DNA from: Amanita rubescens
Taxonomy: Eukaryota > Basidiomycota > Agaricomycetes > Agaricales > Amanitaceae
Assembly (NCBI GenBank): GCA_015039365.1
Contig: WION01000025.1
Span: 186,001 to 250,000 of the forward strand
Length of the DNA: 64,000 nt
Direction: 5' to 3'
This document shows, piece by piece, positions 24,156 to 59,529 of this stretch. The position numbers and the translations under genes were made by a program. The notes under the pieces were generated by a model. It was not told the DNA's origin. It ran no database searches and was given only the letters and a program-made list of their open reading frames with translations. Each line of letters starts with the position of its first letter. The stretch's first letter is position 1.

Positions 24156-25981
24156 CAGTTTCGCTCTTTGATATTTGTGCAAAAAGTGTACACACACCCA
24201 CTTACTATGATAGCTTTATGGGACTGTTTTCGGGAACTTTGTCAGAATATACGCTGCGGAAGTTATGTTGAGGTTCGTGACAGTCACTGGCAGACCTTTT
24301 GAAGATAGCGCCCGTGCACGAAACCAAACACGCTTCATGAAGGACCCTGAACCTTCCGTGCAGGAGAAGCCCTCCTCGGCGTCCTCGCCAAGAATGGATT
24401 ATCTATTCTGACGTTATCTTGAGAAATAGGACTCTCGTCAAACATGTTTCGAATAACCTATGGCCCTTTCGAATGCTATTTAAGTAATTAATACATTAGT
24501 CGAGGTTCACCCACCAATCTGGCGTCGATAATGTGGAAAGCCGTCTTATCTAAATCTGATGGCGTGTACGACATCGCCATAGATGACAATAGCAGGGTAA
24601 GCTTCGGTTTCTCGGGAAGTCCCTTGAACGTTTGCGTCTGACATGTTCCCACAGCATGCCATATAGTCTCACACGACCCGCCTTGGAAAGTCTGCTGACA
24701 CTAGCGCATGCGGTCGTAGGATATAGGCCCGGTTGCGATTCAGAGCATACAACATTCAGCTCCAGGACGAGTTCGATGTAATAACGCGACGGTTTCAAGG
24801 AGACGTCGCGAGATTTGAAAGCTTGGCAGAGGCAGGCTTAAATAAAGTCATGGTTCTCATGCCGTGTTGAGCGTCTTAGCTTGAACGATATGGAAACATC
24901 GCTTATAATTAACGCAGATCTGTCCTATCCGGAAGGTCGAGTCAAAAATACATGGATAACGCGAGCATTTTAAACGGACCACATACCTATAATGCCCAAC
25001 ACCTGTCGTTGGCAATGATGATTCAGGTGAAAGAAAGCGAAGATTTATGCAGGTCTAGGAGGCACCGAGATGAAGGCGAACAGCAGAATCTCTGGTTTAT
25101 TTGTCCAAATTTACTACTTCAGGGTGAACTCGGCGGGCCGTATAGCGCGACTATCTTTTCCATTTTTGTGCTTATATCTGCAACACATTTAACAAAATGT
25201 GATGCTGCGCACGCCATGAATGGTATCAGTTTACCGATAATTCGCCGCGTTCTTATCATTAACCGTCCATCGAGCCCGAGCAACGCGGTATTCCGTGATT
25301 AGCACCGTCCACGGCACTCAGGTTCGCTTCAGATCTACTCAAGATCCAGGTCTCCCATGTTCAGTTGCACATCTCAAAAAATTCGGCGGCGTCCGTTTGC
25401 TGCGGTCTAGCGCCCTTTAAGGGCTCATATGATTATCAACGAGCAGAACGTGACACTACTCAGGCCACCTTGCTATCCTTGTGAGACCCACGTGCCCACC
25501 GCGTGTGGTTAGTAATGCCGTTCTTCCGTCTCCCTTGAGATAGACCCCTCTGAACGGCTCAGACAACGATTAGTTGAACAAAACATTCAGGTGAGTTCCG
25601 GAGGTTATCTCCGTTAGTGCTAAGGCACAGGGTGAGAAAAAAAAGAAGGAGCAACGGTGATCTAATAACTAAATCAAACGCTCAGTCGGACGGCTGTGGC
25701 ATCATACTTGATTGTACGAGCGAAACCAACCTCATGTGCGATCGTCTAACAGGGCTCTGTAACAGTGGGAAACGCACATTTAACTGGGTCCGTTATAGCA
25801 TCAACGTTGTATCGGCACGAGGACTTCCCAAATCAACGTTTACAAATTAGAAAGTCCGACTGAAAGGTCTCATAAGGATCCACATCTTCCGTCGATTCTA
25901 TCCGCCCCGTTCTTCAACATCCCTCGGCTTTTCTCGTATCCGTAACGCCGCCGCTACGATCCTGCCATCGCTAGGGATACC
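24156..25981. other. no recognisable gene
   Basis: A possible short exon begins with ATG at about 24531 and ends at a GTAAGC donor near 24598, but no in-frame continuation was found. Open frames at 24952-25302 and 25617-25850 carry no recognisable domain. The last part upstream of 25982 may hold the promoter of the VWA gene. Confidence 0.35.
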
Positions 25982-28259
25982 ATGATGCCAACTTGTACCT
26001 CTCCGTCCAAGCTTTCTTCCCCGTACCAGGCTGTAGTAACACTCCTTCTCATCGAGAATTCATCATCCATGTCTACAGTTTGGACTTTACTCCGTGATCG
26101 GTATCTACCTAACGTTCTAAGAAAGATAGAAACGGTGAGTCTTGAACGTTGAACTCTTGACTTGTTGACGACCTTTGTAAAATCCTCGTAGCATTCCACG
26201 TTTTACATCGAAACCAGTTCGCTTTCGCAGAGCCTCACAATACCGCCTCCACCATTGAAAATATACCAGGGCAATGTTGAGGGACTGAACTTTGAGCATG
26301 GGCCACGGAACAAACTAGGTGTTGAAAAGATCCATAACAGCATCGATGTAGGTGGCTGCGCTTTTTTTGAGCGTACGCCAGCCATCTTATTATAAAAACT
26401 AGTTGCTCATTTCCATCGCGACCCGAACTCCTCTGGTCGCATTGCACCTTGTCATTGTCGCGGCTTCAACACCACCCACAAGTTCTGACCATGTGAGTCG
26501 CTCATCCTGGCTTCGCATTTCTGAAAGGATGGCGCAAGTAAGTTGTATCGATTGACTTCTCCGATCGTCGTTGACCCATCAACAGGAAGATATTAATTGT
26601 CATTTGGTATTGAAAGGCGAGGAGGATATGTGGCCTTTGAGGGTTTTGTTTGAGGAAACAGTGAGCCAACTCAAACGTTATCATCCAGGGCATTCCCGTA
26701 ACCCAATTTACAGCTAAGGCTGAGAAGTCGTTATGAGGCTTCGCCGCCCTTGAGTATCAATCCTGCTGAGGCGATTGTACGGCTTACTGAAACGCAAGGT
26801 GATTCACCATGCCAAGAAGGTTCGTGGAATCCTCGTTGTTATTCTTACTACTAACTCATCTTACGATAGTTTCTCATCCTACCGTACGTTATTATCCAGA
26901 TCCAGAATTCGCATGATGGTACTCAATTTCGTGAAAAAGGTTCATACGAGACCCTCCCTTCGGCGTAACAGCACGTATCCTCTAGATTCAGGCGCCGCAA
27001 AACCGTGTGACGGTTACGATGGAACATCATCACAATCACAGTCGGAACTACCGAGCCTAGTTACGCAACTACAACAGCGGCACGGTCTCACCAAAAAGAA
27101 AGTGTATGGCCTCAAGCCACCTCGAATGCCGTTCTTCCGAGAACGGGATGACCCTCCGCTTGATCCTTATAGGAAGGCCGCTCTTCCGTTTCCAGCGGCG
27201 TTAACGGACCTTTCTTTGTCTTCTCCGATTACCCTGACCCCGGGTGGTCGATGTGCACCCCTGTCGAGGCTAGACCGTGCGGCTCGCTTAAGCCGTAGGA
27301 GCCCCACTGATACGTCCTCGCGGCATTGGCATCAGAATCAACCTGCATCTCCCCTATCATCTCCCCTATCATCTCCCGAAAACGAGGCAACATCATCATC
27401 AAACGCCGCTAAAGCGATGCACGGGACCGCGAACTATGAACTTCCTATCGTTACACCAGCTCTACCAGTCACCGAGACGACATACAGACCGTTCCCGCAA
27501 GCTGACCAGCCGTTTGCGTACAGTCACAATATGTATGATCCGGATGTGGACTCGTATAACGCACAGAGTGGGTACTATCCCGTCAGCTACACATCGAGTT
27601 CTCCGAACGTGTACAACAAGCACACCACTAGCCGGGACAGTTCTCCGGCATCACGAGCACCCCTTAACGGTACATCAACAACAACGATCAATTCCGTAGT
27701 CTCATCGCAATCGCATCGTGATCCCATCAATATGTCCCCACAAGCGTCGTCATCTTCATCCAGCACGTCCACCACTAACTCAAAGGACGACGAACCGTTC
27801 ACGTTTGATCCTGAATACATAGCAGCCACCGCTGCCATGTTCCGACAAGAAGTTTTACCAGCCTACCCCGAATACACTGAACAACTCTCATCCAACTCGA
27901 TCATATCCAAAGCAACAGCAACAGCAGCAGCAGCGGACCCAAGTACGTCGTACCCCCTGGGATTGGGAATGGGAAGCGGCGATGGGACGTCATCGTCGTC
28001 GACGTTGCCTTATTTATCGCCGAACAAGGCTGGTCAATTGTACGCGATGAAGTATAACGTGATGACTCGGAGTCATCATCATCATCATCATCACCATCAC
28101 TTTCAACAACAGAGACAACTTGGAATGGAGACGAACAATGTGGGTCTTCCGTCGGTCTCGTCGACGATGACGATGACGTTGGAGTATCCTCAGCCTCTTC
28201 ATTCTCACCTACCCACATATTCTTCGGGAAGTTCGTCGTTGACAGGGTGGGCGGGATAA
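25982..28259 (+). CDS. Mediator subunit 25-type VWA protein with long disordered tail
   Basis: Exons 25982-26134, 26192-26347, 26403-26537, 26586-26660 and 26714-26819 join in phase and encode a von Willebrand A fold of the Med25 type: VVTLLLIENSSSMSTVWTLL, RDRYLPNVLRKIET, KIYQGNVEGLNFEHG, VALHLVIVAASTPP, WLRISERMAQ and EDINCHLVL. The next junction is uncertain. A 14-nt exon (26870-26883), then 26940, keeps the frame into the last exon, which ends at 28259. That model gives about 652 residues. The tail has a conserved-looking box (SLVTQLQQRHGLTKKKVYG) and then Ser/Pro/Asn-rich disorder with a nine-His run. By family it would link activators to RNA polymerase II in the nucleus. If the junction model is wrong, the tail could be a separate gene. 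Confidence 0.62.
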
Positions 28260-28354
28260 ACTCGCACTCTCGTTTTTCTTGTCCTAACGGGGGTTTTTTT
28301 ATTATCGGTCGTGTTGCTTTTCGGTACACACTTTTTTCTCGCTTAATCATCTGG

Positions 28355-28386
28355 ATCATCATCATCATCATCATCATCATTCATCA
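28355..28386. repeat. CAT microsatellite
   Basis: A run of about nine CAT/ATC units just 3' of the VWA gene. A similar run at about 28073-28100 lies inside the coding region and encodes its His tract. Confidence 0.85.
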
Positions 28387-28642
28387 TGAACCCTAAATCA
28401 TATCCATTCATTCATTCATCATTCATTCCCTTTTGGTCTGTTTGTTGGCTGCTGTGCTGATACTTTTTACTTAAAGAAAAAAAGGGGACTCGGCTGCCTT
28501 GATGTACTTTGGTATGAAAGTGACGTGTATGCGCAATAATAATATTAATTTCAATGCATGTTCGCAATCTGACAAACGGTATGTTATTAAGTAAACCCGG
28601 CTAAGTGATACAGCATGTTGCGTATGGTACAAAATAAATAGA

Positions 28643-30264
28643 TCATTGCGACTGTTCTGCGTAAATCTGCAATTGACAGTTAGCAGATAGAGATGGTGTG
28701 GAAAACGCAGTACGCACCTTGATAGTCTTGTCGGCGCCTCCTGTGATGAGGCGAGTTCCCTGTGTGATCAAACGTTGAACAGAACACGCCGGCCTCTGCC
28801 TCGAGCGACCCAGGTTGCGGTATATCGTCCATGTTTTGGAACGGCGTTCCAGTATCGTAATCCCAAAAAGTCAAGGTACCATTGTCGGCTAGATGTAAAA
28901 ACAGTCGTCAGTAAAGGTCGAAAAACCTAACAAAAGGACAATACGAACCGCCGGAAAAGAAGACGCCTTCCGAATTGACGGACATGGTGTTGATGATAGC
29001 GTTATGGCCGCTAAAGTTGAAAACAAAAGCGCCTTCGGGACATTTCCATTTCTTGATATTGTTTCCTCCAGCGGAGCCGGAAGCGAACGAGTACTCGGTT
29101 GGATGAATGGCCAAGGCTCGAACCGACTTTTTGTGGTGCGTCAGGGTCATGGATGATTTCCCAGCTGCGAGATCCCACAGCCTGACGGTAGTGTCCATAC
29201 TTCCGGTGATGACTTGTGGATCGGAATCCTGACATTTGACGTCTGCAACGGTTGCGGTATGGCCACTGAGAACGTGAATCTGAGCTTTCGTCCGCATGTC
29301 CCAAACTCGCGCGGAGGCATCGCGGCCGGCGGTGACTAACACATCAAGGGTTGGGTGGAGGGAGAGCGAATATACGCCCGACAGGTGACCATGATAATGA
29401 CGTATCACTTTGTTGGCTTCTAGGTCCCAACATTTCACCATCTGGATGTCGTTTTCAGTGAAAAGAATGAGCTGCAGAAAGTGGATGGATAACGTACCTT
29501 GTCCTCACCGCACGAAAAGAGGTACGGATGTCGTGGTGAAACGGCCAGCCCTCGAACGGTCGATATGTGACCGGTCAAGGAAAGTTTGAGTTCTCCCGAG
29601 GCTAAATCCCAAATTTTTATAACGCGGTCGCCTGCACCGGTTGCGAACCACTTGTTCCCCGGTTCAACCGCTACGCTCCGTACCCATCCCAAATGTCCCG
29701 AAATGACGCGCACAAGTTTCCATGGAGGGTGGTAGGTGGGTTTGACGACCCGAGTGGTTTTGTGTAACATGAGGGCTTGGGATAACTTGGTGTTTGAGGT
29801 GAACGTAGAAGGTTGGGGGGGTGGTTGTTTGTCTATTGTAGCAATTATGCGCGAGGTGTTGCTATCTGCAGCTGCAATACGTCCGGGTCAATAAATGTCA
29901 AGAAGTAGTGTGAGAGAGAGACTCACGCCCTGCGGTAATCATTTTTCTCGTCTGCTCTCTTGGCCGTGCTGGGCCAACAGGACCCTGCTGTGCAAGTAAC
30001 GCTGAAGGTAGTTCCTTGCAATGACTGTATTCATCTCGGATTTTTACAGAAAGTCGAACACGTGCACTGAGGAACGATTAATGAAGGAAAATGGAATAGA
30101 GAAGGAATAAAATACCTTTTTTCGTCTTCCCGGAAAGAATTATCTCTATCTGATGCGAATATGGCATAAGTTCGCTTTGCGCTGAGCGTTCGCAAGTCTT
30201 CCAATGGCGGGAGTGCTGAAGTAGTCATGATGTTTGGTAGTGTTGTGTGTTGTTGTGTCGGCAT
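28643..30264 (-). CDS. PRP46: PRP46/PLRG1 WD40 splicing factor, with a 1-bp frameshift near the 3' end
   Basis: The minus strand starts at 30264 ([20 protein letters not shown]). An unstructured N-terminal region leads to [20 protein letters not shown] and about seven WD40 blades: [60 protein letters not shown] and a last blade ending IYAEQSQ. This is the NineTeen-complex-associated protein needed for activation of the spliceosome. Introns are short GT-AG. At 28758-28760 a run of three C (GGG on the coding strand) contains one base too many: STFDHTG is followed by [13 protein letters not shown] only after a shift. As written, the last blade is replaced by a foreign tail. It may be a sequencing error because the gene is expected to be essential. 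The start codon lies 97 bp from the divergent TFIIS gene. Confidence 0.9.
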
Positions 30265-44329: not shown

Positions 44330-45520
44330 CGGTTGGAAGAAAGAGGTTGGATTCTGACGTACGGAATCCTGGGTTACGTCAAAATTGGTCTTTCACCACG
44401 AATCTCGCGAAAACACCCAATAAGAATCTGACGTTTGTCGATGGGCTGTAATCGGGTGGGAGATGGCACTGATGTGAAGTTTATAAACGTCGAGGTCGCA
44501 TCTGGGTCATGGATGGGCGCCGGGTGTGAATCAAGGATGTTGGCAGCCTGAATGAAGGATCTGAGGCCTGAGGAAGAGGGTCGTTCAAGGTATGAATGAT
44601 ACAGAAAGGGATGAACGCACCTTCGTAAGTGCCAGTGGACCCTTCTGTTCGTCTCCATCGTGGGCCGTATAGCCTGAACAGCCCGCACACCTCTTCCTTT
44701 GATTGATAAGTCATCGAGGATTCAGAAGGGATGGAGCACCATCGTAAGCGAGCTCCCGTCTGTAATATTGTTGCGTCACTCAGAGCCTGAGAGTCTAGAA
44801 AAAATGCCGTATCTTGATGCAAATATCTTCTGGACCGAGAGTGAGACAATTTGCCACGGACGAGGGCTGACGTCGGCTTCAATAATAGAAGAGAAGGGAC
44901 AGGCGCATAAGACGTGCTTGCTGTATGACGAGAATCTGTGGAAGGGCGAGGTCGGTGGCAAAGGAAACACCGTCGTTCGACCATGTCTCAGATCACGATG
45001 GCGCCGATGACGACGAGAGGAAGAAGGACAGCAGAGGTGGGTTTTCCGTGGGAAGAACAAGATTGGGAACCGAGGAAGATGAGGTCGTATTGGACATGAG
45101 CAAGGGAGTTCCAGACTGGCTGAGGTCTTCTCGGGTTGCTGAGTTCTCGCGCGAGAACAGTGCAGAAGGAAGGGAATAAGGTCTGTGAGACGGTATGGTA
45201 GCCTATCATTTTTGAAGGACGACGTGGGAGAACCGTGTAACGATCGCCTTCCATAAGTAGCGTTCCAAGCTGAAGTGACTAGATAGACCCTAAAGCTCTT
45301 CTTATCTCCCCTCATCGATATGGCTGAACAACGGTTGCAGACTGCCAAAGAATCCAAGGGATTTCGAAATCGCCTGAAGAAGATGTTCGGACGGGGATCG
45401 CAGAACGGTACGCCTCCTAGCCTCTCGAATTCGGCACCTCCAACCATTGCTGTGCCTCCGAGTCCAGCTGATCTAGCACCCACTGTATCAACGATGACGA
45501 TCGACCCGGTAGAAGCTGCA
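44330..45520. repeat. segmental duplication, copy B
   Basis: Counterpart of 40560-42338. It runs from the CTGTAATCGGGTGGGAGATG block through remnants of the membrane-protein gene to the 5' part of the GTPase gene at 45320. Confidence 0.65.
44790..45185 (-). pseudogene. fragment of a paralogue of the AYAERR membrane protein
   Basis: The minus strand carries SAVLLPLVVIGAIVI followed by a TGA where Trp is expected. Then, in shifting frames, it matches DPRPSTDSRRTA, YAPPVPSL and LSPEDIR of the gene at 34111-36282. The ATCGTGATCTG here supports a one-base insertion in CCTTGATCTGG of the larger copy. Confidence 0.65.
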
Positions 45521-46190
45521 AAACTCCGGGCCAAGTACACCCACTTCCGTATCCTTGTCATCGGGAGGGCGAATGCTGGTAAAACGACGCTGCTCAAGCG
45601 GGTCTGCAATACAAAGGAGGATCCGGTTTACAGCAAGGTAAGATATCCGCTTCCCTTGATACCCTGGCACTATCATCACCCCTTCACCGACAGATTAACC
45701 CATCCTCGAATGTGATCCTTGTGCATTTCTCTAACCAGGTTGTTGACTTTGATTCTGTAGCGAGGGATCCATAATGTCCATGACGAGTTTTCATTCAATA
45801 GCAACCCACAATTTATCTTCCACGACTCTCCCGGTTTCGAGGCAGGAGGCGAGAAGGAACTTCAGGAAGTACGCTCCTTCATACAGGAGAAGGCGAAAGC
45901 AACTGAAGTAAAGGACCAAATCCATGTGATATGGTGTGTTATATCCTTCCTTTATGTAGCGCAACTGACAATGTGTTCAGGTTTTGTTTCACTCCGGATG
46001 TAGTGCTGCAGAGTCCTGTCCTGTCCTGTCTTTTGGCCCTGGAGGGCAGGACTGAAGACAGGACTGAAGACTGCAAGCTCAAAAGGCCAGAGGACAGGAC
46101 CAAGACTGCTGTAGGGCAGGACTGCAGTCCTGGATCAGTCTCGGACCGGTCCTGACCAGTCTCGGACTGAATGCAGTCTCGGACCGGTCC

Positions 46191-46280
46191 TAACCGGTCC
46201 TAACCGGTCCTAACCGGTCCTAACCGGTCCTAACCGGTCCTAACCGGTCCTAACCGGTCCTAACCGGTCCTAACCGGTCC
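46191..46280. repeat. nine tandem copies of TAACCGGTCC
   Basis: A perfect 10-bp tandem repeat inside the subterminal region of the hAT element. Each unit holds ACCGGT, so it may be an amplified transposase-binding site. Confidence 0.9.
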
Positions 46281-46326
46281 TGGGCAGTCTTAAGCACAAT
46301 TACTATTAGTATTGTAATGTAAAAAT

Positions 46327-49300
46327 CTAAGTAAAGGCAGTGTAATCTACACCAAAATCATCATCGTTGTAGTCCCCCGCATATAGCTCCTCCTCGTCCT
46401 TAAGTATTAGCGAAAAATCATTAAAGTCTACATCTACCTCTTCAATAGAACGGGAATTTACTCGTGCCCAGTCAATTATATTACCTTTCCAGTTGTACTG
46501 TAGACACTCGAGTGCCTCAATGAGATCAGGCCCAATAGATGAACGACGATCAGTAGTGACTTGTTTTGTACGTGAAAATAGTCATTCACAGGAAACAGAC
46601 GATCCGGGGATGGGCAAGATGTCGAGTGCTATGCGGGCGAGGGTCGGATACCTCGTTGTATGCATCTACCACAATATATCGTGCTGATTAGCACCCTTAC
46701 GCTGCTCATTGATATATCACTCACCGACCACCATTTTAGGGTATCCATCTTCTTCTTCACGTCACAAAGGGGTTCCTCGATATATCGCTTGAGCTCCCCT
46801 TCCCATCCTTGCGTCGCCGCCTTTAAACGCCCCTTACGTGCCCGGTCAAAGTCGTCATCATCGTCATCGTCGTCATCGCCATCATCACGGCGATGACGAC
46901 GCTGGTTGGTATCCGGATTGATCACCTCGTTCTCTGTTTGAATTACTTGAACGCCGACTCGGAAGCGTTTCGGCCAGTATTCAGCCATCTTCTAATATAT
47001 TAGCACAGGTAGTACTGGGTAAGAAGAAACTCACGGCTTCATGGACAATGACCCATGCCTCTGCCTGCCAATCCTTCGCATCGCAACTTCCCTCCTCTTC
47101 CCACTCGTTCCTTCCACCCCATTTCGTCTCTATGTATTCCATTCGATAGTAGGGGTGCAATACTGGTTGTCAAGGATCAGTAACTCGTCAGACAAGGATG
47201 GAGATGAAAAACATACACATTGATAGGACATATACTGGCGTATTATCGAGGTTAATGTAGTATTTATTCAATTTAGATAATCCCTTCTTGATTGCAGAGC
47301 GGAAGATGTTGAATTTGGGGTTCGCAAGCTTGCGTTCCCACCGGGTCAAGAGGCCTTCAAGTGCGGGGATAACACGGTGCAGTGTGGGGAAGGCGTCCGA
47401 TGAAGACTTCTGCTGGTATTCGTTGGCGTCCTGCAAGAATATGTGAGTGACCACACGCGAAAAGAATGCACAGAAGTCGAGATCCGTACCTCTAGTATTT
47501 CAGCACACCACGCCACCCGTTGCCATTTCGACTCGTCTAGCAAAAACGCCGTCCATGGGATCTTCTTCACAACCTTTCCGTGTTTACGAACGGTTGTTAT
47601 GGGGCCGAATTTCTTATCTGCGCTCAGAATAAACGAATCAATAGGCTACCAAAATACATATAAGCTCAGAAGTGCGATGCTACTGACAATCCACGCACCT
47701 CACGTAGCTTGTATGCACGCTCGCACATGGCAAACGCAGTGCCCCATCGAGTATTACCATGTAGGGGTATCTTCAGTGGTTTTTCGAAGCCATGATCGCG
47801 TTGCTGCTTTTCGAACCACTCCTTGCGCTGACCTGAAGCTTGAATCTGACACAGGATCGATCAGAGATCAGTCAAGGATGAGAAGCCAAGACATACCTTG
47901 ACGACGAGTGTCCGGATCGTAGCGATGACATCCAGCTCGCCAATCACTAACCGGTTTTCGGGCAAAGAGGGATCAAAGTCCCAGATTGCTTGCTTCGTCT
48001 CAACAACTGCTAGCTGGGTGATCTCAGACATGAAGTCTGAGATCCCCAGCTGGATCACATGCGCTATACATCTGTAATATGTATGCGGCACAGTGAGATG
48101 CGATTCATGAAATCAGAACGAACAACTCACCCAAGTTGACGGGATTCTGCTGACCACTTTGTAAACCCACGCCGCTGTAATACGGATGCCACCTTCTTTA
48201 CGGTGGTCATGTTATTGCTTGCATTGTCCGCAGTGACGTAGCCAAGCTAAGTTGCTGAAGATAAGACAATGGTGAGGAAAAGACTCGGTAACGCACATTG
48301 TTACATGTCTTGGACGTAATTCCGACGCGATCCAAAAGCTTCATTACGTAGCGGCCAAGGTTGTCGCCATCGTGCGGACCGGAAATCTTGTGCATCGCAA
48401 GAACTTCTGAACGGAAAACCCAGCCATTGGCCTTCACGTCAATCCACTGGGCGCAAAGGCCCAAAAACGCAGTGCTTGTGTGCGGAGCCGTCCAGGTATC
48501 CCAATTAACTGAAACATCTCCGACGATTTGCCGGAAAGTGAGCTTCAGTTTGCTAATATAGTCATCAAATTCACTGATTATCTTGCTGCGAATCGCCGAG
48601 CGGCCTGGAAGTTCTTCGCGAGTTGTTTTTGGACGCATCGTGACCAGGCAATTGGTGAAGGTGAGGTCATCGCCGAGGACAAGGGCCTAAGGTTTTGGGG
48701 TAAGGAGATACAATCTTATCGATATTAAATTACTAAGCACGCACTTCATCGCTGCAGACAACGTGCTTGACAATGACGTCGAGGATGGCAGCTCGGGAGA
48801 ATGCGGTCGGACCCTCAACCTTCTGTACGACGCCGTCAAGCGTCTTTTGCATGCGGACCGCTTTCTTTCCCTCTGCTTCATTACGCTCTCGCTCAGCCAA
48901 CACACTCTTTGGTACTGCACTCGGCTTTTCAGCATACCCCTTCTGTTTGCACCGCTTGGAATACTCTTGATAGTGGAACGCGGCAATGTGGCGGCGGCAG
49001 CTTGTGTTGCTGCCACTAAGCCAGCCCGCCATTGCTCCACGTTTCTTTTTGACTACGGGATCTTCCCTGCAAGAAATTGAACTAGGTACATATCTAAACC
49101 GCTTGGTGGATCCACATAACTGACGTACCTGCAGATTTCGCACCACCGTCCCTTCTTCATATTCGAAGACCCATCGGGGCGATTAAACTTGACCGTTACG
49201 GAGCCAGAGAAGATTGTCTCCATGTCGCGTGTTTTTTCAACCTTCGCCTCATGATGGCTTGCGCATTCGTCCTCTGTCTGTAAATGCCAATTACTACCTA

Positions 49301-49630
49301 AGTTTGAAATGCTAACCGTCGACGTAGAAGACTTGCCTCGCTCTGATCAGCACCAACGTCATCTTTGTTACCCTCAGGCTCCCTTACTTCTTCAACCACT
49401 TCTTCAATATGGCTGCTACTCCCGTCCTCAACTTCCATTATTTCATCTTCATCATCCTCGGGTGTCTGGGTATCTGAGCGGCGTCTTGATGCCGGCGGCA
49501 AGTCTTCAACCTCAACTTCACGCCTTCGTTTATTGGTTCTCGATGACAATGATGAAGAATCTTGTGCCTCAAGGAGTCTCTGAGATGGAACATGCTTGCG
49601 CGATGATTTGCGCTGCGTGGCTGACTCCAT
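46327..49630 (-). CDS. hAT transposase, multi-exon, with one internal stop
   Basis: The start at 49630 opens a basic/acidic disordered region, then a BED-type zinc finger (GRWCEICR, then RRHIAAFHYQEYSKRC). The RNase-H-like core has DVSVNWDTWTAPHTSTAFLG (first Asp), LGYVTADNASNNMTTVKKV (second Asp) and LKIPLHGNTRWGTAFAMC (the conserved RW). The C-terminal dimerisation domain contains YPTLARIALDILPIPGSSVS, CE[stop]LFSRTKQVTTDRRSS and LIEALECLQYNW, ending at 46327. The invariant SCERLFS reads SCE-TGA-LFS (stop at 46582-46584), a CGA to TGA change. An acidic run of Asp residues lies near 46870. Introns are short GT-AG. The enz­yme would cut and paste the element; this copy is probably inactive unless the stop is read through. 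Confidence 0.9.
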
Positions 49631-51164
49631 GTCGGGTGAACGAATGAACTTAGAGGCGAGTCATTGTTTTTTATTCTAAAAAAAAGAGACTAATTACTAA
49701 TCACTAGGTGCACCTGAGTCGGAGTTGGGTGTGAGTGTTAGCGTCGGGGCGCTACTAAGTCCCCACCATGATCCGAAGAGATGCCGCCTTCCCGCACCGC
49801 ACCATCTACTATATTCCATGTGCTACCTTGATCTACTCGACACTCCAAACCTGAGCTGTACCATATTGGCATCCATTGAGTGTTTCATGTAGCGAGCGCC
49901 GCCCACTTAACTTGTTGGCATCACCGACTGGTGTTTCAAACCTCCGCCATACTATATTGAGTTATTCAACATCAGAGATGGCTGTCAGTGTCCCGGCATT
50001 GAACGGCTGTTTTGTCATCTCATATAGACATGAATTAAGTAGTCTAAGATCGGTCGGGACCGGTCAGGACCGGTCCTGGCCAGTCCTCCATTTTCCCGAA
50101 TCCTGAGGACCGGGACTGGGACCGGGACAGGACCTCAAAAGACTGACCTGCTGTCCTGTCCCCGACCAGTCCTACTCCGGTCTTTGATCAGTCTCGGACC
50201 GGTCCGGGACAGGACTCTGCACCACTATCCGGATGTATCTCGCCCATTATTGGAATTGGAACAGAGGTTCTTCAATGAGAAATATTGCGGGAATGGTAAG
50301 ATCATTTAAAATCTCCAAACTCTTCATTGTGACTGACAATGAACAGTTCCAGTTGTGGCAATCTTCACGAAATTTGATGATCTCATCACGCAGGTCTATG
50401 ATATACATAAAGAAGAAGAGGAGAATAGAGAAGTTGCTTGTGCTACCTTGAAGGAGAAGTTTGAGGAGCCACTCAAGCATTATAAGTCTTCACCTTGTGC
50501 ATATGTGCAATTTGAATGTATGCCTCTTCTCCTTTAGCAACCAATCTTGGGACTTATAGTGTGCCATCCAGCTATTGAGAAGGATGAAGGTAATCATCAG
50601 GAACAAGTTGGGAAACTAATCAAACAGACGGCGGCATCAATTGACAACTTGGCACTGAAGATGTTGTTTGTCACTGTCCAACAGAATAACCTAGAGGTCT
50701 GCATTGAATATGCAGTGAACAAGTCTGTTATCTGCTTACATATCTGCTGTTGCTTCAACTTATCTCTCTATTTCAGGTATATCTTTCAGCATACCTTAAC
50801 AGTGGTACATTTTTTCTTGAATTGTAGAAATTTGAGTGCTCAAATGAACAAAGGATAACTTGATTTACAAAGCTGCATCTTGGTTTGCACATTGCTATTG
50901 GCAGGCATGCAAATTGAATGCATTTTCTTGAGCCATGACTGAAATTGAGAAGGATTATGTGAGAGTTCACTTCTACTTGAGCCAGGGAAGATGGTGATCA
51001 CAGATGTTTCAGGATGTAAGTATCATGACCAAATATTGATGACAAAGTTTAACCTGGATGTTCAGTATGTGAGTATGACATTAAGCTAATTCAACAACAT
51101 ACTAATTATGCAAATGATAAGGGGGAAAATGTAAGAATTTCAAAGTGATAGGAATATAACTTGT

Positions 51165-53119
51165 GAATTGCTGACATGTTGCCATGAAATCCCATCCAGA
51201 GAGTGAGTGACTGTGTGCCTCCTAGCTCAATTTGAATGTTGACATGGTGCCATGAAATCCCATCCAGAGAGTGAGTGACTGTGTGCCTCCTAGCTCAATT
51301 TGAATGTTGACATGGTGCCATGAAATCCCATCCAGAGAGTGAGTGACTGTGTGCCTCCTAGCTCAATTTGAATGCTGACACGGTGCCATGAAATCCCATC
51401 CAGAGAGTGAGTGACTGTGTGCCTCCTAGCTCAATTTGAATTGCTGACACGGTGCCATGAAATCCCATCCAGGGAGTGAGTGACTGTGTGCCTCCTAGCT
51501 CAATTTGAATTGCTGACATGTTGCCATGAAATCCCATCCAGCTTGTGAGTGACTGTGTGCCTCCTAGCTCAATTTGAATTGCTGACATGTTGCCATGAAA
51601 TCCCATCCAGCTTGTGAGTGACTGTGTGCCTCCTAGCTCAATTTGAATTGCTGACATGTTGCCATGAAATCCCATCCAGGGAGTGAGTGACTGTGTGCCT
51701 CCTAGCTCAATTTGAATTGCTGACATGTTGCCATGAAATCCCATCCAGGGAGTGAGTGACTGTGTGCCTCCTAGCTCAATTTGAATTGCTGACATGTTGC
51801 CATGAAATCCCATCCAGGGAGTGAGTGACTGTGTGCCTCCTAGCTCAATTTGAATTGCTGACATGTTGCCATGAAATCCCATCCAGGGAGTGAGTGACTG
51901 TGTGCCTCCTAGCTCAATTTGAATTGCTGACATGTTGCCATGAAATCCCATCCAGGGAGTGAGTGACTGTGTGCCTCCTAGCTCAATTTGAATGCTGACA
52001 TGTTGCCATGAAATCCCATCCAGGCAGTGAGTGACTGTGTGCCTCCTAGCTCAATTTGAATTGCTGACATGTTGCCATGAAATCCCATCCAGCTTGTGAG
52101 TGACTGTGTGCCTCCTAGCTCAATTTGAATTGCTGACATGTTGCCATGAAATCCCATCCAGGAAGTGAGTGACTGTGTGCCTCCTAGCTCAATTTGAATT
52201 GCTGACATGTTGCCATGAAATCCCATCCAGCTTGTGAGTGACTGTGTGCCTCCTAGCTCAATTTGAATTGCTGACATGTTGCCATGAAATCCCATCCAGT
52301 TTGTGAGTGACTGTGTGCCTCCTAGCTCAATTTGAATTGCTGACATGTTGCCATGAAATCCCATCCAGGGAGTGAGTGACTGTGTGCCTCCTAGCTCAAT
52401 TTGAATTGCTGACATGTTGCCATGAAATCCCATCCAGGGAGTGAGTGACTGTGTGCCTCCTAGCTCAATTTGAATTGCTGACATGTTGCCATGAAATCCC
52501 ATCCAGGGAGTGAGTGACTGTGTGCCTCCTAGCTCAATTTGAATTGCTGACATGTTGCCATGAAATCCCATCCAGCTTGTGAGTGACTGTGTGCCTCCTA
52601 GCTCAATTTGAATTGCTGACATGTTGCCATGAAATCCCATCCAGTTTGTGAGTGACTGTGTGCCTCCTAGCTCAATTTGAATTGCTGACATGTTGCCATG
52701 AAATCCCATCCAGGTTGTGAGTGACTGTGTGCCTCCTAGCTCAATTTGAATTGCTGACATGTTGCCATGAAATCCCATCCAGCCAGTGAGTGACTGTGTG
52801 CCTCCTAGCTCAATTTGAATTGCTGACATGTTGCCATGAAATCCCATCCAGGGAGTGAGTGACTGTGTGCCTCCTAGCTCAATTTGAATTGCTGACATGT
52901 TGCCATGAAATCCCATCAGGTTGTGAGTGACTGTGTGCCTCCTAGTTCAATTTGAATTGCTGACATGTTGCCATGAAATCCCATCCAGGGAGTGAGTGAC
53001 TGTGTGCCTCCTAGCTCAATTTGAATTGCTGACATGTTGCCATGAAATCCCATCCAGGCAGTGAGTGACTGTGTGCCTCCTAGCTCAATTTGAATTGCTG
53101 ACAGGTGAACCATGTTCAG
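51165..53119 (+). repeat. tandem array of about 28 intron-like 66-nt units separated by variable 3-nt spacers
   Basis: The period is 69 bp. Each unit begins GTGAGTGACTGTGTG, contains TTGCTGAC (a fungal-type branch site, A about 25 nt before the end) and ends CCCATCCAG. That is a complete GT-AG intron of normal fungal length. Between CAG and the next GTGAGT are exactly three bases. In order I read AGA x4, GGA, CTT x2, GGA x5, GCA, CTT, GAA, CTT, TTT, GGA x3, CTT, TTT, GTT, CCA, GGA, GTT, GGA, GCA. The 66-mer is nearly invariant, with small changes in the first four or five units and one C deletion near 52917. The downstream exon (53120) is in phase 0, and 3-nt spacers keep phase. Confidence 0.95.
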
Positions 53120-53561
53120 GGCCTTATGGACACTCAATTCAATGTAAGATCACATTTCATTCTTTTCATCCCCTTCACTCAAGTATTCCCAATTACATAG
53201 GCACCTTCTTTGCATTGTTTTATTGGTCTGATTAATTTTACCCTTTCTCCTATATTTACAGTTTCTTACTATTACATGGACAGCCATCCTCATCTGTCTT
53301 GAACATTCCTTCTGGCTTGTCCAGCAAGGCTGCAATTCCACTGATGGCTTCACCAAGGCCTGGAAACTTTATCTGAAGACCCAGCATGCACTGGTTGAAC
53401 AAGAAGTGGATCACTACTTGAGGTCAAAGGACATCAATGATTGGTTCACCATCAAACATCAGCCATCTGACACAGAGTGTGCTGAATTCAGAAAAATAGT
53501 TCTTAACAATTTATTATGTAACTCAGTCCCTGTCTTCTTTGAGCTGGAATTGCTGATATAG

Positions 53562-54640: not shown

Positions 54641-55800
54641 ATGTTCATTTGCTTTCTGGTGTTTTCTACCTGCCCTACACTGCTACCTTGCATTGCCTAC
54701 AAGGAGTGTCCAAATCCAAGTCTCTGCTGCTACTGCATTCCATGCAGTATGGACACAGGAAACTAAATGCAATCTCTGCTGTTCATGTATTTGCAAATGC
54801 ACACATTATTTCCTTGGCCAAGGAAATAATGTGGCAGTGTCCATTTCTTTGCTTTTGTCTTGCACCTGCCTTACTCCACTACCTTACATGATTACCATAA
54901 CTTTAAAGAGGCATGTCCACTGTCTAAGTCATTGAATGGCATTACAGCTCTGTTCATAATTATATGGAATTGTGTAAACAAAATTTGATGTATTCATTTA
55001 TTTGGTTCTAGAACCCTGTGCCTTCATGCTGTGCCACACCATCTTGTGTGACATAAAGGCAGTCCTCCTGCAGAAAGGCTATGATGTTCCAGGGAGCTAA
55101 TTGCAATGCCTGCCCTTTTGTGTGCTTGGCCCTACTTGTAAATGCACTGCCACATTATTTCCTTGGACAAGGAAATGATATGGCAGTCACATCCATTTAT
55201 TTGCTTTTATCTTCTACCTGGCTTACCCTACCACCTTGCATGATTGCTTATAAAGAAGTGTATCCTGCTGTCCAAATCTCCCTATAGAATGAACCCTTAT
55301 GGAAACAGCGTGAGGCAGCCAATTGCAATGTCTGCCCTTTTGTGTATTTGGTTCCATTTGGATATGCACTGCCACATTATTTCCTTGGCCAAGGAAATAA
55401 TGCAGCAGTGTCCATTTATTTGCTTTTGTCTTCTACCTGCCTTACTCTGCTACCTTACATGATTGCTTACAAGGAAGCATATCCTGCTGTCCAAATCTCC
55501 TTAAGGCATAAACCATTCATGGTGACAAGGAGTGAACTGCAATATGTGCTTTTGTGTGTTTGGTCCTACTTGGAAATGCACTGCCACATTATTTCCTTGG
55601 CCAAGGAAATAATGTGGCAGTGCCCATTTATTTGCTTTTGTCTTCTACCTGCTTTACTCTGCTACCTTGCATGATTAACATATTCTGCTGTCCAAATCTC
55701 CCCAAGGCATAAACCATTTATGGAAACAAGGAATGAACTGCAATATCTGCTTCTTTTGTCTTTGGTTCTATTTGGAAATGCACTGCCACATTATACACCT
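54640..55800. repeat. diverged tandem repeat of about 215 bp, each unit holding a palindrome
   Basis: Units share TTTGCTTTTGTCTTCTACCTG, CTTACTCTGCTACCTTGCAT and CCTGCTGTCCAAATCTCC. Each carries the palindrome whose left arm is CACTGCCACATTATTTCC plus TTGG, followed directly by its reverse complement (44 bp, no spacer). It is perfect at about 55578-55621, near perfect at about 54800 and 55367, more diverged at 55152, and cut short at 55779. The open frames across it are repeat shadows. Confidence 0.85.
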
Positions 55801-55835
55801 TTTTATAACACTAGTACTATAAACATATCATAGAT

Positions 55836-56440
55836 TATAGGTGCTTTTCGGAGTTAGCATAGGGGGTATATGGTATACTGCGGGGGGGTTATTGTATTGA
55901 TTTAGCCAGAAACATGGCACAAAAGTAAGAAATAATGCGCGGAAGTTTGTTGTGTATAACATGTGAAACACATATGAAAGATATGTTTAGCACAAAAGCA
56001 ACCACGGATGAGAACACCAGGAAGCGCGGATGAGTTGGTCTGTCATTTACATACAAAGTGTGCAGAATGTATCTGTTTTCATCCGCTTAAAACAGTGTTG
56101 CAATAGGCGGAAGATGTGTGTTGTGCATATGATAATTATAGGTGCTTTTCGGAGTTAGCATAGGGGGTATATGGTATACTGTGGGGGGGTTATTGTATTG
56201 ATTTAGCCAGAAACATGGCACAAAAGTAAGAAATAATGCGCGGAAGTTTGTTGTGTATAACATGTGAAACACATATGAAAGATATGTTTAGCACAAAAGC
56301 AACCGCGGATGAGAACACCAGGAAGCGCGGATGAGTTGGTCTGTCATTTACATACAAAGTGTGCAGAATGTATCTGTTTTCATCCGCTTAAAACAGTGTT
56401 GCAATAGGCGGAAGATGTGTGTTGTGCATATGATAATGTA
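55836..56440. repeat. 301-bp direct tandem duplication
   Basis: Two nearly identical copies start TATAGGTGCTTTTCGGAGTT (about 55838 and 56139), each ending in GCATATGATAAT. They differ at only a few positions, so the duplication is recent. Confidence 0.9.
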
Positions 56441-56559
56441 TATATAGGCATGAAAATAGTCCGGCAATGATGACACTGCAATGGGCAGAGTAGTTTACAT
56501 ACTGAGTATGATGTGCCAATCATCCACCGATAAAGACATAGCGATTCACGGTAGATTAT

Positions 56560-56860
56560 TTTGTGTCAAGCCAAACATAGTGTTGTGACCAACCAAAACC
56601 ATGTGAAAATGGTCCGCCTATTACAACGCTGCCATCGGCGGACCATTTTTCATTTATATAAGTGATCCAATTATCCGCCAATCAAAACATTGTAATGTGC
56701 AGAAGATTATTTTCTTTAAAGCCAAACATAGCATTGTTACCAATTGAAACCATGTGAAAATGGTCCGCCTATTCCAACGCTGGCATCGGCGGACCATTTT
56801 CATCTATATAAGTGATACAATTATCTGCGAATCAAAACATTGTAATGTGCAGAAGCCCTT
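56560..56860. repeat. two-copy repeat with hairpins
   Basis: Two copies of about 150 bp share AGCCAAACATAG, ACCATGTGAAAATGGTCC and ATATAAGTGAT. Each contains the inverted repeat AAAATGGTCCGCC...GGCGGACCATTTT with a loop of about 20 bases. Confidence 0.8.
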
Positions 56861-56864
56861 TTCT

Positions 56865-59529
56865 TTATTGATTAGTGACAGTCTCCCCAGGCTGGACTGT
56901 AACTATGGTGGATTTTTGAATTTTTGAAAAGGGTGGTCCATCCAGTGCTTCCATTGCTAAAGGACTATCACTCCATGTGTTTTGTGGTAAATACTAGTAT
57001 CAAATAGACTGTGTTACCTAGGGAACTCCAGGGGATGTACCCTTTTGGATGCCAGTGACCACTGGGGAAGTACTCCTGCTGTTCCCCAGCCTCCTGGTGT
57101 CCACTGGGGCCACTGGGGGAGTACCCCTCAGCTGTTCCCCAGCCTCCTGGTGTCCACTGGTCACCAGTGGGGCAAGTACCCCTGCTGTTCCCCCCCTCCT
57201 GGTGTCCACTGGGGACCACTAGGGGGAGTACCCCTCAGCTGCTGTCCACTGGTGACCACTTGGGTACTTTTTGCTGTTCCCCAGCCTCCCATTGGTATCC
57301 ACTGTACCACTGGGGAGTACCCCAGCTGTTCCCCAGCTTCCTGCCAGTATCCACTGGTGACCATTGGGGGAGTACCCCTGCTGTTCCCCAGCCTCCTGGT
57401 GTCCACTGGTGACCACCGGGGGAGTACCCCTGCTGTTCCACGCAGCCTCCTGGTATCCACTGGTGACCACTGGGGGGAGTACCCCTCCTGTTCCTCAGCC
57501 TCCTGGTGTCCACTGGGGACCACTGGGGGGAGTACCCATGCTGTTCCCCAGCCTCCTGGTGTCCACTTGGGGAGTACCCCTCAGCTGCTGTCCACTGGGG
57601 ACCACTAGGGGGAGTACCCCTCAGCTGCTGTCCACTGGTGACCACCTGGGGACTTGTACACCTGCTGTTCCCCAGCCTCCCAGTGGTATCCACTGGCAAC
57701 CACTGGAGGAGTACCCCTGCTGTTCCCCAGCTTCCTGGTGGACCACTTGGGGGAGTACCCCTGCTGTTCCCCACCCTCCTGGTGCCCACTGGGGACCATT
57801 GGGGGGAGTACCCCTCAGCTGCTGTCCACTGGTGACCACCTGGGTACTCGTTGCTGTTCCCCAGCCTCCCAGTGGTATCCACTGGCAACCACTGGGGGAG
57901 TACCCCTGCTGTTCCCCAGCTTCCTGGTGTCCACTGGCAACCACTGGGGAGTACCCCTGCTGTTCCTCAGCTTCCTGGTGTCCACTGGGGACCACTGGGG
58001 GGAGTACCCCTGCTGTTCCCCAGCCTCCTGGTGACCACTGGGGGAGTACCGCTGTTTACAATGTTCATGCATATTCGAATCCTGACCGAAATATGCATGA
58101 AATTGGGCATTCTTGTATAACTGGTGTGCGCATTACTGATTGCTACAGGGTTGTCAATCGCTCTGCATCTCAAAAAGAGAAACTTCTTGCTTGCATTACT
58201 AGTAGTGGGAAAACACCATAAAATGTACCTCAAACTGAATAGTAGTACTTGTAGTAGTATTGCAAAACATACCTGAGCTCACTTCCCTCATTTCCAGCCC
58301 AAGTTGTTGTAGTGCAGCAACCTTGTCAATTGTCACTGCCTTTGTGTTTTTTGATACAACTTTGGGAACAATGATCTGGTAGAAGGTAGGAAAAAAGCAT
58401 CCACCAGGGTACTCGGGGAGTGCCCCTGGAGTACCCCAGTGTCCTGGCGTCCACCAGGGTACATCGGGGGAGTGCCCCTGGAGTACCCCAGTGTCCTGGC
58501 GTCCACCAGGGTACATCGGGGGAGTGCCCCTGGAGTACCCCAGTGTCCTGGCGTCCACCAGGGTACATCGGGGGAGTGCCCCTGGAGTACCCCAGTGTCC
58601 TGGCGTCCACCAGGGTACATCGGGGGAGTGCCCCTGGAGTACCCCAGTGTCCTGGCGTCCACCAGGGTACATCGGGGGAGTGCCCCTGGAGTACCCCAGT
58701 GTCCTGGCGTCCACCAGGGTACATCGGGGGAGTGCCCCTGGAGTACCCCAGTGTCCTGGCGTCCACCAGGGTACATCGGGGGAGTGCCCCTGGAGTACCC
58801 CAGTGTCCTGGCGTCCACCAGGGTACATCGGGGGAGTGCCCCTGGAGTACCCCAGTGTCCTGGCGTCCACCAGGGTACATCGGGGGAGTGCCCCTGGAGT
58901 ACCCCAGTGTCCTGGCGTCCACCAGGGTACATCGGGGGAGTGCCCCTGGAGTACCCCAGTGTCCTGGCGTCCACCAGGGTACATCGGGGGAGTGCCCCTG
59001 GAGTACCCCAGTGTCCTGGCGTCCACCAGGGTACATCGGGGGAGTGCCCCTGGAGTACCCCAGTGTCCTGGCGTCCACCAGGGTACATCGGGGGAGTGCC
59101 CCTGGAGTACCCCAGTGTCCTGGCGTCCACCAGGGTACATCGGGGGAGTGCCCCTGGAGTACCCCAGTGTCCTGGCGTCCACCAGGGTACATCGGGGGAG
59201 TGCCCCTGGAGTACCCCAGTGTCCTGGCGTCCACCAGGGTACATCGGGGGAGTGCCCCTGGAGTACCCCAGTGTCCTGGCGTCCACCAGGGTACATCGGG
59301 GGAGTGCCCCTGGAGTACCCCAGTGTCCTGGCGTCCACCAGGGTACATCGGGGGAGTGCCCCTGGAGTACCCCAGTGTCCTGGCGTCCACCAGGGTACAT
59401 CGGGGGAGTGCCCCTGGAGTACCCCAGTGTCCTGGCGTCCACCAGGGTACATCGGGGGAGTGCCCCTGGAGTACCCCAGTGTCCTGGCGTCCACCAGGGT
59501 ACGTCCACCATCAATTCTGCAAAGTCCAT
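56865..59529 (-). CDS. hypothetical gene whose large introns are minisatellites
   Basis: Four minus-strand exons join in phase: 59503-59529 (MDFAELMVD), 58273-58375 (IIVPKVVSKNTKAVTIDKVA onward), 58060-58160 (AIDNPVAISNAHTSYTRMPN) and 56865-56993 (YLPQNTWSDSPLAMEALDGP, ending QPGETVTNQ and TAA). The product is 119 residues with no family recognised. Introns are 1,127, 112 and 1,066 nt, against about 50-60 nt elsewhere in the window. Intron 1 is a perfect 52-bp minisatellite and intron 3 a diverged GC-rich one. The exon composition differs sharply from the repeats, and all four phases agree. The donor of intron 3 (GTAAAC) is weak and expression is unproven. Confidence 0.4.
56994..58059. repeat. 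GC-rich degenerate minisatellite (intron 3 of the hypothetical gene)
   Basis: Imperfect repeats of about 45-65 bp built from GGGGAGTACCCCTGCTGTTC and CAGCCTCCTGGTGTCCACTGG blocks fill the interval. The unit is related in sequence (GAGTACCCC, TCCTGG, GTCCAC) to the 52-bp array at 58400-59502 but is far more diverged. Confidence 0.9.
58392..59502. repeat. homogeneous 52-bp minisatellite, about 21 copies (intron 1 of the hypothetical gene)
   Basis: Unit: GTACATCGGGGGAGTGCCCC, then TGGAGTACCCCAGTGTCC, then TGGCGTCCACCAGG. The units are essentially identical, which indicates recent expansion or ongoing homogenisation. Open frames exist in several phases on both strands and are repeat artefacts. 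Confidence 0.95.

Follow-up and report, generated by a model that had tools for sequence, protein, structure and literature searches.

A probable ladder of one-codon exons encoding a variable linker in a GTPase gene family of Amanita rubescens

Micro-exon genes of schistosomes possess very small symmetrical coding exons, the alternative splicing of which can lead to protein differences of a few residues (PMC4350168), and splicing is possible for exons as small as 1-3 nt, in plants and in other organisms (PMC4674806; PMC8831610). Fungal introner-like elements are near-identical spliceosomal introns that have multiplied in one genome (PMC4457414), and a tandem duplication that carries splice signals can create a new intron (PMC4974935). 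At the protein level, the HYP effectors of potato cyst nematodes are conserved at both ends, while the domain in the middle consists of short motifs in shuffled order (PMC11228951). The SP7 effector family (PMC11333574) was also considered and is not close. All these descriptions follow excerpts of the works cited.

The DNA analysed here (the window) is a stretch of 64,000 nucleotides from Amanita rubescens, an ectomycorrhizal mushroom, and lies on contig C168 of the 75.7 Mb of genome that were searched for arrays. A first-pass annotation of the window had pointed out a 69-nt tandem array with intron signals, in the sense orientation between exons of a GTPase gene, and had left three options for it: a ladder of one-codon exons, recursive splicing, or one large intron removed whole. 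As judged from sequence comparisons, the array is very probably a ladder of one-codon exons, and the linker that it encodes changes fast and joins a GTPase domain to a helical C-terminal domain.

The array and its host gene

TRF reports a period of 69, 28.2 copies and 97% matches at 51164-53103 of the window. The unit starts with GTGAGT, contains the branch-like sequence TTGCTGAC (GTTGAC in some units) and ends in CATCCAG (once in CATCAG, at the acceptor before the second GTT spacer), and 3 bases are left from each acceptor to the following donor. Parsing the window as acceptor, spacer and donor gives 28 spacers, in the order AGA x4, GGA, CTT x2, GGA x5, GCA, CTT, GAA, CTT, TTT, GGA x3, CTT, TTT, GTT, CCA, GGA, GTT, GGA and GCA, which as codons translate to RRRRGLLGGGGGALELFGGGLFVPGVGA. 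Between these spacers 5 of 27 units have 68 nt and the rest 69, the missing base belonging to the intron part. On the strength of the copy number and of the parsed spacers the array is real, and its sense position between exons of a GTPase gene is borne out by the spliced reading and by comparison with homologues.

The host is a G-domain (MMR_HSR1) GTPase, since the protein assembled from the exons of another copy of the gene, L013, matches PF01926 with 30.4 bits (cut-off 21.9). By sequence it is a plain member of the Agaricomycete MMR_HSR1 GTPase family, for which 927 homologues were found at E <= 0.001. Outside the array, the window copy reads as follows:

45320..45637, + strand: putative exon 1 with the P-loop GRANAGKTT, matching the annotated Amanita rubescens protein P0001 at its start with 98% identity; ends GCAAG/GTAAGA
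45981..46000, + strand: 5' part of exon 4, which an insertion splits; placed by blastn of L013 to the window; 8-bp duplication TCCGGATG at 45993-46000
46001..50227, no strand assigned: hAT-like insertion, with the TCCGGATG duplication at 45993-46000 and 50228-50235 and inverted ends TAGTG(C/G)TGCAGAGTCCTGTCC
50572..50722, + strand: putative exon 6, SIEKDEGNHQEQVGKL...LEVCIEYAVN; the spliced reading matches P0001 and homologues
50854..50904, + strand: putative exon 8, DNLIYKAASWFAHCYWQ, ending ..SWFGHCYWQ; from the spliced reading
53105..53143, + strand: putative exon 3' of the ladder, VNHVQGLMDTQFN, phase 0; aligns with VSHVHGLMGAQCN of P0122
53262..53561, + strand: putative C-terminal exon, FLTITWTAILICLEHSFW...ELELLI and stop; from the spliced reading

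The window copy is interrupted upstream of the array by the 4.2-kb insert in exon 4, where L013 is continuous. We had considered it to be 5'-truncated and dropped this idea; the 5' exons are present and the gene is split. The insert, which we take to be a hAT element, contains inner ACCGGTCC repeats, and two of its ORFs gave no Pfam match. The intron after exon 8 begins (50905-50906) with GC in the window and in L009 and L010, and with GT in the other 24 array copies. Downstream of the gene lie further tandem repeats (55115-59502; periods 212, 301, about 52 and others), among them, at 58400-59502, 21 copies of a 52-bp unit.

Between exon 8 and the 3' exon the following elements are predicted:

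50950..50958, + strand: micro-exon AAG GAT TAT (KDY), from the alignment of 26 copies
51013..51015, + strand: one-codon exon GAT (D), with introns of 54 nt and 50 nt on either side; GAT in 25 of 26 copies, GAG in one
51066..51068, + strand: one-codon exon TAT (Y), TAT in 26 of 26 copies
51122..51130, + strand: three-codon exon GGG GAA AAT (GEN); GDD, GTN, GQN and GKT in other copies
51131..51199, + strand: hybrid intron of 69 nt, an upstream-type donor GTAAGA fused to the branch site and acceptor of a ladder unit
51200..53060, + strand: candidate ladder of 28 one-codon exons (RRRRGLLGGGGGALELFGGGLFVPGVGA) with 27 introns of 65 or 66 nt between them, from TRF and spacer parsing
53061..53104, + strand: final intron of the ladder, 44 nt, a shortened form that the window shares with L009, L010 and L011

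Micro-exons thus precede the ladder. In L013, introns of 54, 50, 53, 49 and 60 nt between exon 8 and the ladder leave KDY, D, Y, GEN, E and K; by eye they do not resemble the ladder unit, and they share with it the grammar of an intron followed by whole codons. The one-codon exons D, Y, E and K vary by 0.7% per site among the 26 aligned copies (E and K being measured in 22 copies), against 4.4% in the intron interiors and 1.3% at the splice sites, and single-base as well as 9-10-base deletions are found within these upstream micro-introns. E and K are present in 22 of the 26 aligned copies and absent from the window and L009-L011, where fusion of an intron with a ladder unit removed both; the resulting hybrid keeps a donor, a branch site and an acceptor. 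At the other end of the ladder, the 17 further copies compared have a longer stretch in the region of the last intron than these four. Loss of the acceptor before the K exon in L016 and L037 counts against the one-codon-exon model. The Amanita model P0005 (contig C134) ends with CYSQ-GGNKQVTWRIPN; this can be read as a connection of exon 8 with the acceptor of E, one of the one-codon exons, followed by part of the next intron.

Distribution, variation and turnover of the units

The first-pass annotation had asked for a genome-wide hunt for solo or tandem copies of the intron-like unit. The first 32 bases of the unit, searched with up to 3 mismatches (a control gave 0 matches), match the genome 593 times (278 forward and 315 reverse). 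Every match is accounted for by an array (263 + 315 in the first 26, with the other 15 in L043), and all 27 arrays (that of the window and those of L009-L028, L037-L041 and L043) lie in sense at the identical position of one G-domain GTPase family; at this threshold no unit copy occurs outside the family anywhere in the genome. The C-terminal exon is found at 26 loci (27 rows, two of which are one locus) and is adjoined by an array at 25 of them. The remaining locus, L042, has no adjoining array. L043, which lies on that contig at a distance of about 8 kb, has the array, and its sequence stops within the C-terminal exon, so that, as judged from the sequence outside 24500-30000, an insertion is likely. 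L041 has an array and no match to the C-terminal exon. A search with a more distant C-terminus returned 4 weak matches, all of them known copies; further ladders may still exist. Three array-bearing copies (L023, L024 and L027) lie about 10 kb apart on contig C779.

This distribution bears on the idea that the repeat is a dispersed introner-like element, or a minisatellite lying in the gene by chance. Its intron-like signals and high copy number are what one would expect of such an element, but introners are dispersed in unrelated genes and minisatellites are independent of gene structure and strand, whereas here all matches fall in sense arrays at one place of one family. We have rejected this explanation, the probability of which is very small. 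Non-genic satellite copies without strand bias, which would have spoken for it, were not found, and the absence of matches outside the family leaves the earlier suggestion that each copy arrived, introner-like, with its own 3 bases unsupported.

The 27 arrays contain 640 spacers, of which 634 have 3 nt, three 6 nt, one 2 nt and two 4 nt, so that 637 of 640 are multiples of 3. The off-size spacers, which would shift the frame, occur one per array (2 nt in L021, 4 nt in L016 and L028). None of the 634 triplets is a stop codon in phase 0, which is weak evidence since the units copy each other. Among 531 intron bodies of 66 nt in 26 arrays there are 94 distinct sequences, with a mean variation of 1.1% per site, while the non-major fraction in the 617 triplets of the same arrays reaches 49%, 54% and 27% at positions 1, 2 and 3. 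The triplet is therefore the main variable part of the unit, as had been proposed, and it does vary more than the other positions. Five stretches of at least 134 bases between parsed spacers hold units missed by the parser. Within the 94 distinct bodies, the donor (6) and acceptor (3) sites show 1.0 variant per site vs 4.5 elsewhere (permutation p 0.0001), a contrast favoured by the parser, which at the splice sites accepts no more than 3 mismatches per 11 bases and 2 per 9.

Intron lengths other than 66 nt make up 43 distinct alleles, 32 of which are not multiples of 3. Set against the 5 off-length spacer types (two in frame, three not) in 3 nt, these 43 length alleles in 66 nt reveal no depletion of indels in the spacer; the count per nucleotide thus shows no frame constraint, and only the count per unit (637/640) favours a frame. 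Spliced in silico from exon 6 to the C-terminal exon, 21 of 24 copies (L037, L041, L042 and L043, which the script could not assemble, lie outside this set) are without a stop; L019 has one stop, L028 three and L021 four, and the 4-nt spacers of L016 and L028, which the script omitted, would shift the frame too.

The 623 residues of 26 arrays consist of G (183), R (98), A (96), F (74), L (71), Q (48), E (21), V (18) and 14 others. Almost every residue is written with one codon, the third position being near-fixed within an amino acid, and R uses CGA and AGA; this points to change at the level of amino acids, or to the shuffling of a fixed set of cassettes, and not to general hypermutation of three bases. 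In all 27 arrays the triplets follow a simple rule, NNA with G, C or A as base 2 and NTT with T as base 2, the few exceptions among 3-nt spacers being TAT (6), TGG (3), TTA (2), TTG (1) and GGC (1). Competition between splice sites as the cause of this rule was dropped, since GCA is common despite making a second CAG.

The array might also be read on the opposite strand, as a protein of 23-residue repeats coded on the minus strand. One minus frame is open in the single unit, and 4 of 26 arrays (L013, L018, L025 and L027) are open throughout or to within one codon, but no minus frame is open throughout in the other 22, most of the non-66-nt length alleles would break it, and the homologues described below favour the plus strand; the chance of such a protein is practically negligible.

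The number and order of the codons change rapidly between copies. L013 and L018 show no mismatch in about 790 bases of upstream flank (gaps not counted), yet their ladders of 29 and 21 codons differ by 14 edits, and L017 and L023, with an equally mismatch-free flank, differ by 19 edits (29 vs 17 codons); in the pairs L023/L024, L015/L019 and L014/L020 both the flank without mismatch and the ladder are shared. Farther out the flanks diverge, L017 and L023 being about 97% identical over 3.9 kb and L013 and L018 sharing only about 1.3 kb upstream, so that the ladder differences could in part stem from misassembly or from gene conversion close by. This variation is known here from differences between paralogues within one assembly. 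Neighbouring codons are identical 156 times, against 99.8 expected (s.d. 8.2), and none of 2000 shuffles reached this number (24 arrays, three exact duplicates dropped). Such an excess is what local duplication of units would give, and together with the single gene position of all units it upholds the proposal that the unit multiplied in place.

Homologues, splicing and the encoded linker

The position of the ladder was compared with 15 proteins of other organisms that we picked from the homology matches, coded on contigs of 914-1554 bases (source jgi). Their genes run in one uninterrupted frame across the Amanita intron positions, which suggests that these short contigs are transcripts or cDNA; alternatively, the homologue linkers might sit in one ordinary exon. 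At the position of the ladder the homologues carry a motif such as HDYGKEE or YDYGKTEE followed by a linker, and the order HDYGKEEEARGFAFAGFRRFAVGAG.., YDYGKTEEGGLGGGRLGGRLG.., HNYGTKEDRRGLGLLGILRRD.. is found between segments of CYW type and ICLEHSFW type. Linkers are borne by P0114 (HDYGKEEEARGFAFAGFRRFAVGAGAGRFGAGADAFTD), P0104 (YDYGKTEEGGLGGGRLGGRLGHLRLGLGGRGGGLGHLRLLKN), P0121, P0122, P0124 and others. In 11 of the 15, the residues G, A, R, F, L, Q, E and V make up a larger share of the linker than of the rest of the protein; the share is equal in P0132 and lower in P0137, P0040 and P0082. P0126, outside the 15, has almost no linker, and P0035 and P0100, from other sources, have ordinary ones. 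The [YH]-D-Y-G motif, which the tiny exons of Amanita spell as well, is exact in 8 of 16 proteins (the 15 and P0015, judged by eye) and off by one or two residues in the other 8. The L013 copy, spliced in silico, aligns with P0122 in a single piece at 62% identity over 220 columns.

A further protein, P0131, lies on a 5-kb contig that looks like genomic DNA of another fungus, and its frame crosses diverged units of a ladder on the way to the C-terminal exon that Amanita has here too. At seven of its nine junctions a spacer of 3 nt gives the best fit; at the remaining two the best fit is 0, likely owing to an indel in the motif. A ladder with a different intron sequence is thus probably present in at least one more genome. 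The predicted proteins P0128, P0131 and P0139 (contigs of 5-14 kb, other organisms) read through introns near the C-terminal exon.

These comparisons weigh most heavily on the option of the first-pass annotation that would make the whole array one large intron, or have it removed by recursive splicing that keeps nothing, the triplets never appearing in mRNA. A GT stands at the start of the array and an AG at its end, three arrays have an off-size spacer, and 3-nt exons are very rare in print, all of which this option would accommodate. Yet uninterrupted homologous proteins carry a ladder-like peptide at the array position, the flanking tiny exons spell a motif of these same homologues, the triplets are free of stops, and few sites are better conserved than the internal donors and acceptors. 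We consider it quite improbable that the array is lost whole; the single large intron is contradicted by the transcript-like homologues, and of the options first listed it is the ladder of one-codon exons that is supported. All seven annotated Amanita GTPase models that we compared end before the ladder, which counts against this reading, although a gene caller might stop there anyway; if the reading is true, annotation misses the ladder.

In the ladder reading, the 69-nt unit would consist of a complete phase-0 spliceosomal intron (~66 nt) and one codon, and the separate splicing of each intron would join the codons to a linker of 4-42 residues, in which G, R, A, F, L and Q abound. Amanita transcripts would accordingly be spliced along the ladder, unit by unit. 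For short introns in fungi, recognition across the intron is the accepted view, so that a 3-nt exon would itself need no recognition, and if splicing were ordered from the 5' end, each exon would already be long when it is used. Slippage or unequal exchange between introns so nearly identical may add units to the array and delete them; each event would add, remove or swap whole codons with the frame kept, and the linker could thereby change fast. Since the introns are near-identical and whole codons are left, the frame would survive exchange, loss or skipping of units, and the amino-acid variation of the linker may be selected.

One version of the ladder reading, with which it is compatible, holds that most of the one-codon exons are skipped variably, giving many in-frame linkers per gene as in micro-exon genes. 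Any donor could be joined in frame to any later acceptor, given the whole codons and near-identical introns, and exon skipping may be a source of diversity in Amanita. But the linkers of the homologues, 24-51 residues from the CYW-type segment to the C-terminal block with the motif included, are about as long as the Amanita ladders of 4-42 units, which suggests that most ladder codons are kept; we regard predominant skipping as unlikely. It is possible, if on balance somewhat doubtful, that the ladder works as a system of codon cassettes, in which the introns serve as homology arms and recombination, possibly with exon skipping, writes peptides residue by residue and in frame. With the same reserve, the GTPase family might hold a built-in generator of diversity, perhaps serving recognition, whose changes would be selected or programmed.

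For the homologue P0040 a structure was modelled from 28 sequences (mean pLDDT 77); it has a G domain, segments of low confidence (pLDDT <50 at 298-304 and 308-314) and then a helical C-terminal domain (pLDDT about 83-97). From this low confidence between the two domains, the ladder probably encodes a flexible hinge. In a fold search the model matched dynamin-like GTPases and immunity-related GTPases only weakly, at a TM of about 0.3, and we therefore claim no function.

The ladder beside known systems

If the ladder reading is true, a protein segment is coded one codon per exon, dozens of times serially, and the locus tests the minimum size of serial exons under intron definition. The usual rule would be inverted, with constant introns and hypervariable exons, and single amino acids could be shuffled by a simple route without frameshift. 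Intron multiplication, concerted evolution and protein diversification would all become testable at one locus.

A search of a limited literature collection found no description of serial one-codon exons. The exons of schistosome micro-exon genes are several codons long, and we know of none that are tandem units with near-identical introns; in the ladder the exons hold one codon each, and the introns are conserved while the exons are not. The feature by which micro-exon genes are told, mostly very small exons in multiples of 3, applies to the linker only, the GTPase and C-terminal exons being larger. What the two share is a coding stretch of tiny symmetrical exons, as far as the excerpt describes them (PMC4350168). 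With the HYP effectors the ladder shares the confinement of change to one place of the protein; the units of the former are coding motifs of 5-6 residues, whereas the ladder, in a fungal multigene family, shuffles an intron together with a single codon (PMC11228951, from an excerpt). Introner-like elements, in the excerpt at hand, were gained in separate genes, whereas the ladder introns stand in tandem at one position of one family (PMC4457414). The tandem duplication described in the available part of PMC4974935 made one new intron in one gene, against up to 42 units here with a codon kept between each, and the 1- and 3-nt exons in the excerpts on tiny exons are single, neither arrayed nor hypervariable, whereas those of the ladder are serial (PMC4674806; PMC8831610).
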